42,664 bases of DNA from an uncultured Bacilli bacterium (GTDB lineage Bacteria > Bacillota_I > Bacilli_A > RF39 > UBA660). The stretch is taken from assembly GCA_944359075.1 (NCBI GenBank), contig CALVSR010000004.1, forward strand, positions 1 to 42,664, given 5' to 3'. Numbering within the stretch: the first letter of the stretch is position 1; every line of letters begins with the position of its first letter. Positions 3,319-10,799 of this stretch are shown piece by piece. The notes under the pieces were generated by a model that was given only the letters and a program-made list of their open reading frames with translations, made no database searches and had not been told where the DNA came from. The position numbers were made by a program, and so were the translations under genes.

Positions 3319-3813
3319 ATGGAAAAAGGATTTGATAATAAAAAATATATTAAAGTTCAGAGTGAAAAAATAAAAGAGAGATTTAAATTATTTGATAAGC
3401 TATATTTAGAAGTTGGTGGTAAATTATTTTATGATAGAATGAATCAAAATTTTGATAATCGTGGTGTCTATGATAATTACATAGATTATGGTATAGTGAA
3501 TGGTGAGCTTGAAAACTTAAACTTAACTAATGCAACTAGTAGTGATATTAATAAATTCTTTAAAACATTAAGTTCTATTTATAGAGATAAAATGCTGGTG
3601 ATAAAAGACTGTTATAAAGATAATTCAAATGCTGGCGATAATCAGGTTAGAGTTACTGTTGGTTATCAAATAGATCAACTATATGGAATTTTAAATTATG
3701 TAAATGACAATTATGAGATGATTATTAAAAATTTAGATGACAAAATTAGTAATAGTTCTTTTGTTTTTGATTTTATATGTGATTTAAGAGATTTTAATGT
3801 AGATCAAATTTAA
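3319..3813 (+). CDS. Hypothetical protein, 164 aa (small-ORF cluster, 3 of 4)
   Basis: Not recognised. A Lys/Asp/Asn-rich, mostly helical-looking soluble protein without a signal or membrane segment. A weak GTAGGGTG ribosome site precedes ATG 3319. Its MEK start with nearby Lys pairs resembles the first ORF of the cluster, but I see no clear homology. Confidence 0.5.
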   Translation: MEKGFDNKKYIKVQSEKIKERFKLFDKLYLEVGGKLFYDRMNQNFDNRGVYDNYIDYGIVNGELENLNLTNATSSDINKFFKTLSSIYRDKMLVIKDCYKDNSNAGDNQVRVTVGYQIDQLYGILNYVNDNYEMIIKNLDDKISNSSFVFDFICDLRDFNVDQI

Positions 3814-4988: not shown

Positions 4989-5588
4989 ATGAACAAACAT
5001 ACTCACAAATTTTATAAAGTGATGTTGTATCGTTTTTTATTGGTTATTACTATTTTTACTTTCTTGTATGTTATGGCGTCTAATACTACTCATAAGACTA
5101 ATAATATTAGTAATATTAATGGTGTAAAATCGATTGAAGCTATTCATATTATTACTAAATATGATAATAGAAATCAGACTCTTGCTGTTAGAGAAGTTGC
5201 CAACATGCAAGAAGCAATGTTATATGGTCCTGATATGCCTATTTCTTTTATTGGTCAAATGACTGCTTACAATCCGGTTTGTGAAGGTTGTACAGGAAAG
5301 GTAGCTTGTCCACCTAGACAAGATGTTCGTAATGGAAATATTTATTTTGATGATAATACTTATGGGACAGTTAGAATTTTAGCGGCTGATCCAGCGATTC
5401 CTTGTGGTACTATTGTTCAGGTTACGAATGTTAGTTTTTCTAATGATCCAATTATTGGTATTGTGTTAGATAGGGGAGGTGCTATTAAAGGTAACATCAT
5501 GGATTTTTTGGTAACTGAAACCGATGATATGAATGTTATTGGGAGACAAAGAAATGTTCGATATGAGGTTTTAAGATGGGGTTGGTAG
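4989..5588 (+). CDS. 3D-domain cell-wall protein (YabE-like, short)
   Basis: A membrane-anchored exported protein of 199 residues. An N-terminal hydrophobic segment (about residues 13-30) is followed by a linker and a C-terminal 3D domain, seen as MTAYNP near 90, GTVRILAADPAIPCGT, and VLDRGGAIKGNIMDF with its conserved aspartates. 3D domains have the MltA-like double-psi barrel fold of lytic transglycosylases and occur in Rpf/Sps-type wall-remodelling proteins. The DUF348 and G5 domains of B. subtilis YabE are missing, so this is a reduced form. It contains three close cysteines (CEGCTGKVAC), perhaps a disulfide or metal site. Confidence 0.8.
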   Translation: MNKHTHKFYKVMLYRFLLVITIFTFLYVMASNTTHKTNNISNINGVKSIEAIHIITKYDNRNQTLAVREVANMQEAMLYGPDMPISFIGQMTAYNPVCEGCTGKVACPPRQDVRNGNIYFDDNTYGTVRILAADPAIPCGTIVQVTNVSFSNDPIIGIVLDRGGAIKGNIMDFLVTETDDMNVIGRQRNVRYEVLRWGW

Positions 5589-5603: not shown

Positions 5604-6227
5604 ATGAATGTTCAAATGAATTCTAGTCAGCAAAAATATTCTCGTAGTCACTATTGGATATATCTACTCATATTTACTACCCTTTTATTTTTTTGTGTTT
5701 TCGGAATTACTTATTCTGTATATTATGGAGAAGGTAATGATGATAACATAATAGATACTAGTCAAATCATTTTTACTTATTCTGATGTTGGGCAAGCAGG
5801 AAACGGAATTCTATTGGAAGATGCTGTTCCTATTTCTGATGAATTAGGAAAAATGATGGTTGGAACTCATCAATATTTTGATTTCTCTGTAACAGCATCT
5901 ACTAAAAATGCAAACCTTTTGTATAAAATATTAATTCATAAAGATCAAAATTCTACATTAAATGATGAAAATGTTCGTCTTTATTTAACTCAATTAATGG
6001 GAAGTTATGAAGAAGAAAAAGTTCTTATTCCATTTTCTGAGTTAGAAACGGAGACCATTCATAATAAAGATTATTATGTTCTTTATGAGAAAAAATTAGG
6101 TAAAGATTTAAATAATTATAGTGATTCTTATCGTTTAAGAATGTGGATTAAAGAAGATGCTAAAGATTATGAAGAACAATATTTTTCTATTAAAATTGAT
6201 GTTTATGCTTATCAAGTAGAGGGGTAG
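5604..6227 (+). CDS. TasA/camelysin-like secreted protein A
   Basis: A 207-residue protein with a hydrophobic signal segment (about 18-37) ending GITYSVYYGEG, which resembles SipW-dependent signal peptides. The mature part is beta-rich: SQIIFTYSD, a GNGI.LEDAVPISD block, YFDFSVTAST and RLRMWIKED. It is clearly paralogous to the next gene, and a SipW-type peptidase follows, so substrate and peptidase are probably paired as in tapA-sipW-tasA of B. subtilis. A role in surface fibres or matrix is an inference. AGGAGA precedes the ATG, 15 bases after the 3D-domain gene. Confidence 0.7.
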   Translation: MNVQMNSSQQKYSRSHYWIYLLIFTTLLFFCVFGITYSVYYGEGNDDNIIDTSQIIFTYSDVGQAGNGILLEDAVPISDELGKMMVGTHQYFDFSVTASTKNANLLYKILIHKDQNSTLNDENVRLYLTQLMGSYEEEKVLIPFSELETETIHNKDYYVLYEKKLGKDLNNYSDSYRLRMWIKEDAKDYEEQYFSIKIDVYAYQVEG

Positions 6228-6236
6228 TGATTTTAG

Positions 6237-6872
6237 ATGAAGCAATCCAAGATAAATATTATGGCTATTATTTTATTGTTTTTGTCTTTGATTTTTCTTT
6301 TTGGAGGAATCAGTTATGCTATTTTTGATTATTTTGGGGAAGGGATGACTAATAATGTAATTCAGACTGGTAGAATTGTCTTTTCCTATTCCGATGCTGA
6401 TAATGGTGGGAATGGGATTTATATTGAAAACGCAATTCCTATTTCAGATGACGTTGGTAAAGTTTTATCTGGCGATGGGGAATATTTTGATTTTACTATA
6501 TCTGCATCCACTACTAAAAGTAATCTTGCTTATGAGGTGGCCATTCAGAAAGATGAGCATTCTACGCTGCCAGATGATTGGGTAAAAATCTATTTAACTA
6601 CTTTTGAGGGCAATCAAGAAAATCCAACTACTATTACTTCTAGCGAAAATGGAATTCTTACTTATCATGAATTAGAAAATACTACAAATGATCTTTTAAC
6701 AGGAAAAACAATTTATTATGGGACCGTTCAAGCTGGAGAAGTTTCTTATGGAAAAAAATTTAGGCTTAGAATGTGGGTAAAAGAGCCTAATGAACAAAAT
6801 TTTGATTATAGTATTTTAAATGATAAATATTTTTCTTTAAAAGTGAATGTTGCTGCATCAGGCACTTACTAA
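6237..6872 (+). CDS. TasA/camelysin-like secreted protein B
   Basis: A 211-residue paralogue of the preceding gene, nine bases downstream, evidently a tandem duplication. The signal segment (about 8-30) ends GGISYAIFDYFGEG, closer to the classic SipW pattern. Shared blocks are I.TG.IVFSYSD, GNGIYIENAIPISDD.GK, YFDFTISAST, LRMWVKE and YFSLKV. It contains no cysteine. A hairpin terminator follows, so it may be made in excess over the peptidase, as expected for a structural secreted protein. Confidence 0.72.
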   Translation: MKQSKINIMAIILLFLSLIFLFGGISYAIFDYFGEGMTNNVIQTGRIVFSYSDADNGGNGIYIENAIPISDDVGKVLSGDGEYFDFTISASTTKSNLAYEVAIQKDEHSTLPDDWVKIYLTTFEGNQENPTTITSSENGILTYHELENTTNDLLTGKTIYYGTVQAGEVSYGKKFRLRMWVKEPNEQNFDYSILNDKYFSLKVNVAASGTY

Positions 6873-6884
6873 TTTTTGGCTGTC

Positions 6885-6915
6885 AAGAAAAACTTTGGTT
6901 TTTCTTATTTTATTT
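6885..6915 (+). terminator. Terminator between the TasA-like pair and sipW
   Basis: A 9-bp perfect stem, AAGAAAAAC (6885-6893) with GTTTTTCTT (6898-6906), loop TTTG, then T-rich DNA. Partial termination here would set the ratio of secreted proteins to the peptidase. Confidence 0.6.
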
Positions 6916-6980
6916 ACTTCCTTTTTTTTATGTGATATTATTATTTTAATAATAATAAAGAATAGGAATCGGGTGATAAA

Positions 6981-7862
6981 GTGGATTTGGCTAAAAAAAT
7001 TTTTCATTTTTTATCGTCTATCTTTTTCTATTCCATTCTTTTGATTTTAGGAATTGCTTTATTGATGTTTATTGCTTCTTTTATAGATCAAAAAATTTCT
7101 CTTCGAAATGGTCAAAATCGTTCTCCTTTATTTGGTGCTTATGTCATTATTAGTGAAAGTATGGTGCCTCATATTAATGTTTATGATGCTGTTGTTACTG
7201 TAAGGGTAGATGAAAATAGTATTCAGGTAGATGATATTATTACTTTTTTATCCAAGGAAATAGAAACAGCGGGGACACCTATTACTCATCGTGTGATTGG
7301 TATTGTTTATGAAGACGATACTAAGCAAAAAATTATTGGTTTTAGAACTAAGGGGGACCATAATAATACAGCAGATTTTGCCTTAATTGCCCCTAATGAA
7401 GTAATTGGAAAAGTTTTTTTAAGAATTCCGATGATTGGATATTTGCAAACGATTATGACCAAGCCTATTGGCTGGTTATTGATTGTAGTAATTCCTTGCT
7501 TGCTCATTATTGGGAGTGATATTTTAAAACTTATTAAAAACACCAGACAAAAAGATATAGAAGAAAGGCAATCCACTGAATCTCCAATTTCTGACGATAG
7601 TTTTGCAAAGTTGTCAAAAGAAAATCCTATACCACCCATACCATCTGTTTCTATAACAGAAGGACAAGTAGAACCTATAAACTCGGCTACATTTGTTTCT
7701 AATTCTACTCAACAGAATGAATTTGATGAAAATCCGTCATCTAATACCAATCCTATGGAAACTAAAGAACAATCTACTTCCAATACTACGATTAATAGTG
7801 AAACTTCATCGCAATCTTCATCTGACACTAACCATTTATCAGATTCAGATCAAATTATTTAG
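6981..7862 (+). CDS. sipW: SipW-type signal peptidase I
   Basis: ER/archaeal-type signal peptidase. Catalytic Ser60 lies in ISESM and the general base is His103 in THRVIGI, in place of the bacterial lysine; GDHNNTAD and GKVFLRIPMIGYL complete the fold. Membrane spans are about 12-34 and 163-180. The start is GTG 6981 after GGGTG. After the second span there is a tail of about 100 residues, very rich in Ser, Thr, Asn and Gln and predicted disordered, which should be cytoplasmic. B. subtilis SipW also has a C-terminal region with a reported regulatory role in biofilm; whether this tail does the same is unknown. Likely substrates are the two proteins just upstream. Confidence 0.88.
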   Translation: MDLAKKIFHFLSSIFFYSILLILGIALLMFIASFIDQKISLRNGQNRSPLFGAYVIISESMVPHINVYDAVVTVRVDENSIQVDDIITFLSKEIETAGTPITHRVIGIVYEDDTKQKIIGFRTKGDHNNTADFALIAPNEVIGKVFLRIPMIGYLQTIMTKPIGWLLIVVIPCLLIIGSDILKLIKNTRQKDIEERQSTESPISDDSFAKLSKENPIPPIPSVSITEGQVEPINSATFVSNSTQQNEFDENPSSNTNPMETKEQSTSNTTINSETSSQSSSDTNHLSDSDQII

Positions 7863-7873
7863 GAGGAACTTTT

Positions 7874-8569
7874 ATGGAATTTATTAAACAATATCTTAAA
7901 ATTATTAATTATGCTTTGATAGGACTTGTTTTTGCTTTTGCCAGTTTTTATTTATTATCTAATGCGTATCATTATTTAGAGATTCGTAAGGACTTTATTA
8001 CTAATTTCTATTCACAGCCTTTGGTTGTTGATTTTGAAACTAAGATTCAGAATGTTAAAGAAAATATTTCTTCTTTTCAAGCAAATGCTTATCATGGAAA
8101 TATTCCTATGAATCAAATGCAGGTAATTTATTATAATTTAAAATCTTGTACTGAAGCTTTTGAGAATGAAACCATTCAAACTATGAAAGGTAAAAATAAA
8201 ATAACGATTATCGATGTATATCAACTTAGAGAATCTTATGAGAATGATATTTTGAGTAGTTGTATTATCAATAATTTATATTGGACTACTACTATTGCTC
8301 CTGAAACTTTTAATAGTTCCTATTTGTTAGATAATCAGCATATGATTCAGCTTTATATTAACTCATTAAAAGAAGAAACTTCTTATTTAAAAAAAGATTT
8401 ACTAAATAATAGTAGTTATTTCTATAATACATCTATTGCTTCTTCTTCTATTAAAGATAACACGAAAGATGGTTTTTATGAAGTCATGGGAGCCTATCAA
8501 AAAGCAGCCAGCTTTGTAGAATTTATTTCTAATTGGTTTAAAAATGAAGTGGAGGGAAATTATGATTAA
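7874..8569 (+). CDS. Hypothetical membrane-anchored protein, 231 aa
   Basis: Not recognised. One N-terminal membrane span (about 13-32) is followed by a roughly 195-residue, Asn/Ser/Tyr-rich helical domain that should lie outside the cell. Two cysteines (CTEAFE and SSCIINN regions) could pair. AGGAGG precedes ATG 7874, 11 bases after sipW, and its end overlaps the next start, so it belongs to the SipW operon. It could anchor, chaperone or assemble the secreted proteins. Confidence 0.6.
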   Translation: MEFIKQYLKIINYALIGLVFAFASFYLLSNAYHYLEIRKDFITNFYSQPLVVDFETKIQNVKENISSFQANAYHGNIPMNQMQVIYYNLKSCTEAFENETIQTMKGKNKITIIDVYQLRESYENDILSSCIINNLYWTTTIAPETFNSSYLLDNQHMIQLYINSLKEETSYLKKDLLNNSSYFYNTSIASSSIKDNTKDGFYEVMGAYQKAASFVEFISNWFKNEVEGNYD

Positions 8570-9086
8570 GATTATTAATGCTATTTTTTCGATTTTAAAA
8601 GTTTTATTATTATTAATTTCCTTTGTGTTTACTTTCTATATTATTATTCATATGTACCAACGACTTGAAAAAAATATGATAGATGCCATTTCTAATTTTA
8701 TTCCATTTGTTTTATTATTTATTTTATTTGCTATTAATATTATTTTTAAACAAAAAAGTGTTAATCAGTGTTTCTTTTATAATGTTACCTGTTGCTTAGT
8801 ATTTGTAATGTTATTGTTTGCTGTTTATAGAACTTTTTTTGACCGTAATATGATAGCTATCATTCGTTTGGGATATGATATTAATTTTAATTATTTTGCG
8901 GATATTATTGCTCCAATGAAAGCAATGCTATATATATTATCTTTATCTAATGTTTTGCTTATGTTAGAAAATTTTCATTGGAAGCCTAAAAATAAAGAAG
9001 TGATTGTTAGTAGTGATGCTAGTAAAAAAACTATTGAAGGTACTAAAAATGGTATCAATGTTATCAGATTTGATGACTCAAAATAA
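8562..9086 (+). CDS. Hypothetical polytopic membrane protein, 174 aa
   Basis: Not recognised. About four membrane spans (near 5-27, 40-60, 68-88 and 118-135) and a polar C-terminal tail. I chose ATG 8562 rather than 8544 because GGAGGG lies between them at 8551-8556. It overlaps the preceding stop by 8 bases, a strong sign of translational coupling. Last gene of the SipW module; a terminator follows at 9113. Confidence 0.6.
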   Translation: MIKIINAIFSILKVLLLLISFVFTFYIIIHMYQRLEKNMIDAISNFIPFVLLFILFAINIIFKQKSVNQCFFYNVTCCLVFVMLLFAVYRTFFDRNMIAIIRLGYDINFNYFADIIAPMKAMLYILSLSNVLLMLENFHWKPKNKEVIVSSDASKKTIEGTKNGINVIRFDDSK

Positions 9087-9112
9087 AACTTTGGTTTTGT
9101 AAAATGGTTTTG

Positions 9113-9168: not shown

Positions 9169-9183
9169 AATAATGGTGATTTT

Positions 9184-9981
9184 ATGAAAGACAATGTTTT
9201 TCACTTTAAAAAGAAATTTGGTCAAAATTTTTTAAAAGACCAAACGATTCCTAAAAAAATTGTAGGAGTTGCAGATATTCAAAAAAATAGTTTGGTAATC
9301 GAAATTGGTCCAGGTGCAGGTTCTTTAACCAAAGAATTATCCAAAGCCGCTAAGCAAGTTATTTGTTATGAGATTGATACTTCTTTAGAAGATATTTTAG
9401 ATAGAGAATTATTGGGGTTAGATAATGTTTGTGTAATTTATGATGATTTTTTAAAAAGAGATGTAAAGCAGGATTTAAGTTCTTATGAATACCATTATTT
9501 ATATGTTGTTGCTAACCTTCCTTATTATATTACGACTCCTATTATTACTCATTTAATAGAAAGTAATTTAGGAGTAGATAAGATTGTAGTGATGATTCAA
9601 AAGGAAGTTGCTGATCGTTTTTGTGCGAAACCCGGAACAAGAGAATATGGTTCTATTACGGTGTTTTTGAATTATTACTTTGATTTAAAAAAAGAATTTT
9701 TAGTTAGTAGAAATTGTTTTGTTCCCAAACCTAATGTAGATAGTGTTGTAATATCACTTAATAAGAAAACAGAACAGCTAAGCCTTAACAATAAAGAACT
9801 TTTTTTTCAATTAGTAAAAGATAGTTTCCGTTTTAAGAGGAAAACTCTTCGCAACAATTTAAAGGGGTACTGTTTGGAGAAGATAGAAGAAATTTTAAAT
9901 GAGTATCATTTGGATTTAAGTGTTAGAGCAGAGGATCTTTCTTTAGAAATTTTTGTTCGCATTAGTAATAATTTAGGATAA
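9184..9981 (+). CDS. ksgA: 16S rRNA A1518/A1519 N6-dimethyltransferase
   Basis: Dimethylates two adjacent adenines in helix 45 of 16S rRNA late in 30S assembly. Motifs are the FGQNFL N-terminus, the SAM-binding EIGPGAGSLT and the catalytic NLPYYITTPI. 265 residues from ATG 9184 is normal. The longer frame from 9118 would run through the promoter and terminator, so I rejected it. GGTGAT is the ribosome site. Followed by yabG 35 bases on, as in B. subtilis. Confidence 0.95.
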   Translation: MKDNVFHFKKKFGQNFLKDQTIPKKIVGVADIQKNSLVIEIGPGAGSLTKELSKAAKQVICYEIDTSLEDILDRELLGLDNVCVIYDDFLKRDVKQDLSSYEYHYLYVVANLPYYITTPIITHLIESNLGVDKIVVMIQKEVADRFCAKPGTREYGSITVFLNYYFDLKKEFLVSRNCFVPKPNVDSVVISLNKKTEQLSLNNKELFFQLVKDSFRFKRKTLRNNLKGYCLEKIEEILNEYHLDLSVRAEDLSLEIFVRISNNLG

Positions 9982-10016: not shown

Positions 10017-10799
10017 ATGCTTTTTCAAGTTGGTGATATTGTTACTCGTAATTCTCATCAAAATGATACTTTTTTTGTGATTGTAGAGATAGAAGGTAAT
10101 ATTGCTTATTTGAAAGGAATTAATTTAAGATTGTATGCGGATAGCGATCTTAATGATTTGGTAAAGGTTGAAGGAAAAGATGTTGTAGATGATGAAAGAA
10201 TTACAGATTCTATTACTAGTGATTTGAACTTAGATCGAAGTGAGTTTTTCTACTTGCCGGGGAAGGTATTACATATTGATGGTGATGAAGACTACTTAAA
10301 GAGATGTATGAATTTTTATAAGAAATTAAACATTATGGCCTATGGTTTATGTCTAAAAGAAAATGATATTAAAACAGAAATTAGAAGTTATTTAGAAAAC
10401 TTGAATCCTGATATTGTAGTAATTACGGGGCATGATGCTTATTATCGTCGTAAAGGATCCCAAGATAATGTGATGAATTATAAGAATACCGTTAATTTTA
10501 TTGAAGCTGTGAAAGAGGCTAGAAATTATGAAAAAAATCAAGATAAATTAATTATTATTGCTGGGGCTTGTCAAAGTAACTATGAAGAATTGATCAAGGC
10601 GGGTTCTACTTTTGCTTCTAGCCCTAAACGCATTAATATTCATGCCTTAGATCCTGCTATTATTGCTTCTTATTTGGCTCTGTATGATCGAAATAAAACA
10701 GTAGATTTATTGGATGTACTAGCAAAAACGAAATCTGGTGCAGATGGAATTGGCGGCGTAATGACTAAAGGTTGTATGTTTGTGGGGTATCCAAGATGA
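10017..10799 (+). CDS. yabG: Sporulation-specific protease YabG
   Basis: YabG is the mother-cell protease that trims spore coat proteins (and pre-pro-CspBA in Clostridioides). The match is by conserved blocks: GKVLHIDGDEDYLKRC near 90, PDIVVITGHDAYY, IIIAGACQSNYEELI and ASSPKRINIHALDPAII, which include the Cys and His residues typical of the family. 260 residues is slightly short. GAGGTG precedes ATG 10017, and two TATAAT-like boxes lie at 9990 and 10000. The stop overlaps the veg start (ATGA). This is firm evidence for a sporulation programme in the lineage. Confidence 0.92.
   Translation: MLFQVGDIVTRNSHQNDTFFVIVEIEGNIAYLKGINLRLYADSDLNDLVKVEGKDVVDDERITDSITSDLNLDRSEFFYLPGKVLHIDGDEDYLKRCMNFYKKLNIMAYGLCLKENDIKTEIRSYLENLNPDIVVITGHDAYYRRKGSQDNVMNYKNTVNFIEAVKEARNYEKNQDKLIIIAGACQSNYEELIKAGSTFASSPKRINIHALDPAIIASYLALYDRNKTVDLLDVLAKTKSGADGIGGVMTKGCMFVGYPR

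Follow-up and report, generated by a model that had tools for sequence, protein, structure and literature searches.

A SipW and TasA-like gene module between a yabE-like gene and ksgA in uncultured Bacilli

Genes and signals at the locus

The module described here lies on a contig of 42,664 nucleotides from an uncultured bacterium of the Bacilli (assembly GCA_944359075.1, contig CALVSR010000004.1); this whole stretch is referred to below as the window. All of the features discussed are on the forward (+) strand. Five genes, here called A, B, sipW, C and D, occupy a slot bounded on the left by a 3D-domain (yabE-like) gene (4989–5588; PF06725, E 7e-7) and on the right by ksgA (9178–9981; PF00398, E 3e-62), both edges being marked also by relatives in which the slot is empty. 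Searches of Pfam and NCBIfam gave no model that describes A, B, C or D.

Gene A (5604–6227) and gene B (6237–6872) encode proteins of 207 and 211 residues, which are 41% identical (E 2e-38). An earlier reading of the DNA, made from its letters and open reading frames (the sequence-only reading), had proposed two tandem paralogous secreted proteins at the head of a module spanning 5604–9086, and the open reading frames are indeed where it placed them. In both, a single membrane segment near the N-terminus precedes a soluble domain. A has a longer cytoplasmic leader, a transmembrane segment at about residues 15–35 and the SipW-type site TYS↓VYY, while the site in B is SYA↓IF, after residue 28, placed by analogy to TasA.

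The sipW gene (6981–7862) has a GTG start and encodes a SipW-like, ER-type signal peptidase I (S26B) of 293 residues with two predicted transmembrane segments. It scores 95 bits against TIGR02228, passing the cut-off of 51.85, and 81.6 bits against the Bacillus SipW equivalog NF046067, which is below the cut-off of 190. There is a His where the bacterial type has Lys. The previous assignment as an ER-type peptidase with Ser60 and His103 is confirmed by this match and by the conservation of the residues among 102 relatives (Ser60 in 101, His103 in all 102), where Asp126 and Asp132 are kept in 101 and 102. The C-terminal tail (7550–7862) is a Ser/Thr/Asn-rich stretch of about 100 residues, and the total length of the protein among relatives ranges from 164 to 477 residues. 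A literature search found no description of SipW in these lineages.

Gene C (7874–8569) encodes 231 residues and gene D (8562–9086) encodes 174, the start of D being likely to be the ATG at 8562, behind GGAGG, rather than 8544. Both are membrane proteins, as had been proposed. C is modelled by AlphaFold2 (pLDDT 82) as an N-terminal transmembrane helix and a helical extracellular domain, and comparison of this model with PDB folds gave nothing below E 0.5. D has four predicted transmembrane segments. We infer that C and D are probably dedicated membrane partners in assembly or quality control.

The five genes had been described as one tight unit. This stands insofar as they recur together in relatives, but A and B are separated from sipW, C and D by a gap of 108 bp that holds a conserved hairpin and a promoter-like site. 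The hairpin (6885–6906) resembles a terminator, with a 9 bp stem, the loop TTTG and a T-rich stretch after it (−6.9 kcal/mol); it is found also in the six closest loci carrying D, with different stem sequences. The promoter-like site of sipW (6913–6941) reads TTTACT-17-TATTAT with a TG before the second hexamer, and a conserved TTTAC...TGTGATATTAT-like stretch lies downstream of the hairpin in the window and in these same six loci. A plain promoter scan over the sequence was not above chance, so the case for this site is its conservation in close relatives. The arrangement suggests two linked transcription units, 3D-A-B and sipW-C-D, and with two such units the subunits could be made in excess. 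In Clostridium perfringens, bsaA is followed by a terminator with read-through (PMC7395162). The sequence AAAACTTTGGTTTT, at 9085–9098 after D, is identical to the core of the hairpin that follows B (6889–6902), and the window has no further exact copy.

Further upstream there is an open reading frame of 164 residues (3319–3813) that matches DUF1846 in its first 40 or so positions only (E 5e-11), the rest being unmatched. It is perhaps a fusion or a remnant.

Relation of A and B to TasA and CalY

A and B are outside the Pfam TasA/CalY family: neither matches its model PF12389 (Peptidase_M73), nor TIGR04088, the SipW-cognate signal model. Among 57 family members, five match TIGR04088, five match PF12389 (best 5.5e-6) and one matches BsaA.

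The structure of B was predicted using AlphaFold2 with the 57 family sequences, giving a β-sandwich with a mean pLDDT of 88. The sole segment with a pLDDT below 50 is residues 36–42, between the membrane helix and the first strand, as would be expected for a free strand. The sequence-only reading had suggested a comparison with TasA and CalY, and among 350,542 PDB chains analysed using Foldseek the TasA fibre (8aur) ranks first, with an E of 3.8e-4 and a probability of 0.99, but with a TM-score of only 0.35. The fifth match is the bundling pilus of Pyrobaculum calidifontis (7ueg; TM-score 0.25), which is likewise built of a TasA-related pilin, but is archaeal and gave no sequence match here. 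Chaperone-usher pilins are lower in the list.

In a profile-profile comparison, the B family was set against TasA/CalY-like proteins that had been gathered from other genomes with PF12389, giving 97% at full length and 88% (E 2.9e-6) when the signal and first strand were removed. As controls, the alignments of C and D gave less than 1% in the full-length comparison, and six column-shuffled alignments gave at most 0.1% in the signal-free one. When the B-family profile was cut to the closest 35 sequences the values were 95% and 60%, respectively, while the signal-free score was weaker when only small subsets of the TasA set were used (40% and 0.6%). Compared with PDB chains as a sequence profile, the B family also matches archaeal pilins (E 6e-4); this match spans the membrane helix, and it is therefore set aside as support. 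Taken from these sequence comparisons, homology of the B family to TasA/CalY is likely, and A would be TasA-like through its homology to B.

Relatives of the module and large proteins with the same front domain

The order tatD-3D-A-B-sipW-C-D is found in six sampled members of the genus (G000, G003, G004, G008, G010 and G011). ksgA follows D directly in these, except in G010, where one further gene for the domain lies between. In the seventh sampled member (G005), A and B are absent from the locus. A scan of the collection with D gave 62 loci, all from uncultured metagenome-assembled genomes, whose titles name Bacilli, Tenericutes, Erysipelotrichaceae, Clostridia/Clostridiales or just a bacterium. 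C adjoins D in all 62. Most commonly, sipW is preceded by one to six A/B-type genes and followed by a short A/B-type gene, then C, D and ksgA. The five genes thus stay together in relatives, and the recurrence in 62 fetched loci shows that the arrangement is not due to chance.

Of 243 genomes sampled from the family, 31 have a match to C, which is weak in three of them; among 392 genomes sampled from the phylum, those of other families gave three marginal matches and no others. In most relatives that lack the module, tatD, the 3D gene and ksgA are directly adjacent, so that it is fair, relative to these genomes, to call the module inserted between the yabE-like gene and ksgA, as was done previously. 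In B. subtilis this slot is occupied by rnmV, which was not seen in these relatives. Some genomes have a lone SipW. In a tree of ksgA, in which several branches are weak, they form one group inside the carriers of the module, which makes it the simpler reading that A, B, C and D were lost there.

In most relatives outside the genus, an A/B-type protein of 160–190 residues is encoded between sipW and C. Paralogs directly upstream of C number 51, of which 49 directly follow sipW. In 48 of the 51 the SipW-like site is missing, the helix ending in a SILWYRFF-like sequence with no small-residue site. From its sequence the short paralog is probably uncut, and it could hold the base of a fibre. It is absent from the junction of sipW and C in the genus of the window.

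Two members of the genus have two extra TasA-like proteins beyond ksgA, of 221–235 and about 435 residues, before a yabG-like gene (L053:8669–10907 and L055:2507–4701). In the window, the protein encoded at 10017–10799 is presumably YabG, of a spore protease family.

The domain is not confined to small proteins. In the genome from which the window comes there are 15 matches with B as the query and 17 with the family profile. At least 12 of these form the front of open reading frames of 307 to over 1,500 residues, several of which are cut off by the end of a contig; the repetition of the domain has probably broken the assembly at these points. Elsewhere in the family the number of matches per genome reaches 33, and 23 sampled genomes from other families gave none. 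The parts behind the front domain, here called passengers, are variable: one protein has 13 cadherin-like repeats (PF12733) and another has Ig-like domains (PF16403), while the others gave no family match. Searching passenger domains by sequence against the PDB found nothing. Recent duplication is shown by some of the copies, whose DNA is 92–97% identical across the front domain and the beginning of the passenger.

Six contigs of G000 (C42, C47, C48, C67, C9 and C56; loci L039–L042, L046 and L047) carry a very similar TasA-like front with at least two types of passenger. In two giant proteins (L043:3–4604 and L044:7442–9640) a TasA-like front is combined with numerous cadherin-like repeats, of which the longer protein has 13; both extend past the fetched end of their contig.

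Neither an LPXTG motif nor a C-terminal transmembrane segment was found in any of the 13 large domain proteins with complete C-termini, from this genome and its relatives. Two sortases are present in the genome, and sortase anchoring of the large proteins was rejected on the basis of these 13. A diversity-generating retroelement as the source of the variable ends of the passengers was also rejected, there being no reverse transcriptase in the genome. A PHROGs search gave nothing convincing for an origin in phage.

A possible surface fibre and its alternatives

The module can be compared with three bacterial systems. TasA polymerises through an N-terminal donor strand that is freed by SipW (PMC9674648), and TapA, whose N-terminal residues are similar to those of TasA, starts the fibres (PMC10151520). 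The tapA-sipW-tasA operon of Bacillus subtilis has in common with the present locus a SipW-type peptidase with TasA-like substrates, and its fibre is the best fold match. However, as the sequence-only reading had noted, content and location differ: here no TapA family match was found among A–D, the subunits are two or more in tandem, there are the additional proteins C and D, the chromosomal place is another one, and large fusion proteins are encoded elsewhere. The operon of Bacillus cereus, sipW-calY1-bc_1280-calY2 (PMC10151520), is similar in having two camelysin-type substrates with SipW; here, in contrast, A and B miss the PF12389 profile, and for C and D no known family gives a match. In C. 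perfringens the export and polymerisation of BsaA need SipW (PMC7395162). The cluster sipW-bsaABCRSD (PMC7395162) shares with ours SipW, small secreted filament-forming proteins and a terminator after the main subunit gene; it differs in starting with sipW and in containing a two-component system, whereas here there are C, D and large fusions.

On the basis of these observations, we hypothesise that this is probably a SipW-dependent secretion and surface-fibre module, in which A and B form a TasA-like filament and the large proteins join it by their own front domain; cleavage, polymerisation and co-assembly are the parts that we infer. The general Sec pathway would insert A, B and the large proteins, leaving the N-terminal helix in the membrane, and SipW would cut after [YF]-[AS] at the end of the helix. 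As in TasA, the flexible N-terminal segment so freed could then act as a donor strand and complete the β-sandwich of the subunit that follows. The filament itself would consist of A and B, and the large proteins, using their own TasA-like front domain, would attach to it or to its end, which would display them without sortase. In most relatives the short paralog may provide a base held in the membrane; in the genus of the window, A or C could serve as the base. A surface fibre or matrix was suggested by the sequence-only reading, and is supported here: neither the fold nor the synteny comparison contradicts it.

A fuller version of the hypothesis, which we put forward tentatively, is that display independent of sortase is the general function of the system: the subunit domain of a TasA-type fibre would have been copied onto at least a dozen large proteins per genome, whose variable passengers plug into the fibre or cap it by donor-strand exchange, with the uncleaved paralog and C-D as the membrane base. 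If the hypothesis is true, TasA-type fibres would be a modular display platform in uncultured small-genome gut Bacilli, beyond the biofilm scaffold of Bacillus, and up to about 20–30 proteins per genome that have no assigned function could be sorted into a scheme of peptidase, fibre domain, passenger and base that is open to testing.

The most serious alternative, though an unlikely one, is that the TasA-like domains stay unpolymerised, SipW only releasing or processing a family of separate surface or secreted proteins and the front domain acting in secretion or in recognition by SipW. It fits with this that the large proteins outnumber the standalone ones, and that in the lone-SipW clade of the genus several members still have many domain proteins. 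However, the whole domain of about 200 residues is conserved rather than the signal alone, the closest fold is that of a fibre subunit, and the proteins are without other anchors.

We give only a small probability to the proposal that what is built belongs to the spore, as a layer or appendage, and not to a matrix or surface fibre of vegetative cells. A spore-forming organism is plausible, as SpoIVA is present in the genome, and the YabG-read protein is nearby. The first description of TasA was as a component of spores (PMC9674648), and sporulating species are predicted in related uncultured orders of Bacilli (PMC10868615). Against this, the locus is in a housekeeping neighbourhood; moreover, the proposal concerns timing and is compatible with the fibre mechanism.

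It is improbable that the products remain uncut in the membrane as stalked ectodomains, SipW mainly cleaving something else. The strict SipW-site pattern is found in only 61 of 152 putative substrates, so that the strictness of the pattern may be excessive, or else some substrates are uncut, and the site is clearly missing from nearly all paralogs directly upstream of C; but B and most of the large proteins of the genome have a canonical YA↓FF-type site.

Finally, it is most improbable that SipW is a housekeeping signal peptidase with incidental neighbours: although the bacterial-type signal peptidase I was not found in G003 and G008, the genome of the window (with a single SipW) and nearly all relatives have one, and SipW tracks with the domain proteins. 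SipW as the sole housekeeping peptidase was rejected for the same genome on this ground. The assemblies of G003 and G008 are incomplete, which may account for the missing gene. In a sample from other genera of the family, made up of related genomes with no correction for kinship, and using a domain profile built largely from loci near SipW, domain proteins were found in all nine genomes that match SipW strongly (E < 1e-27) and in one of nine that do not.
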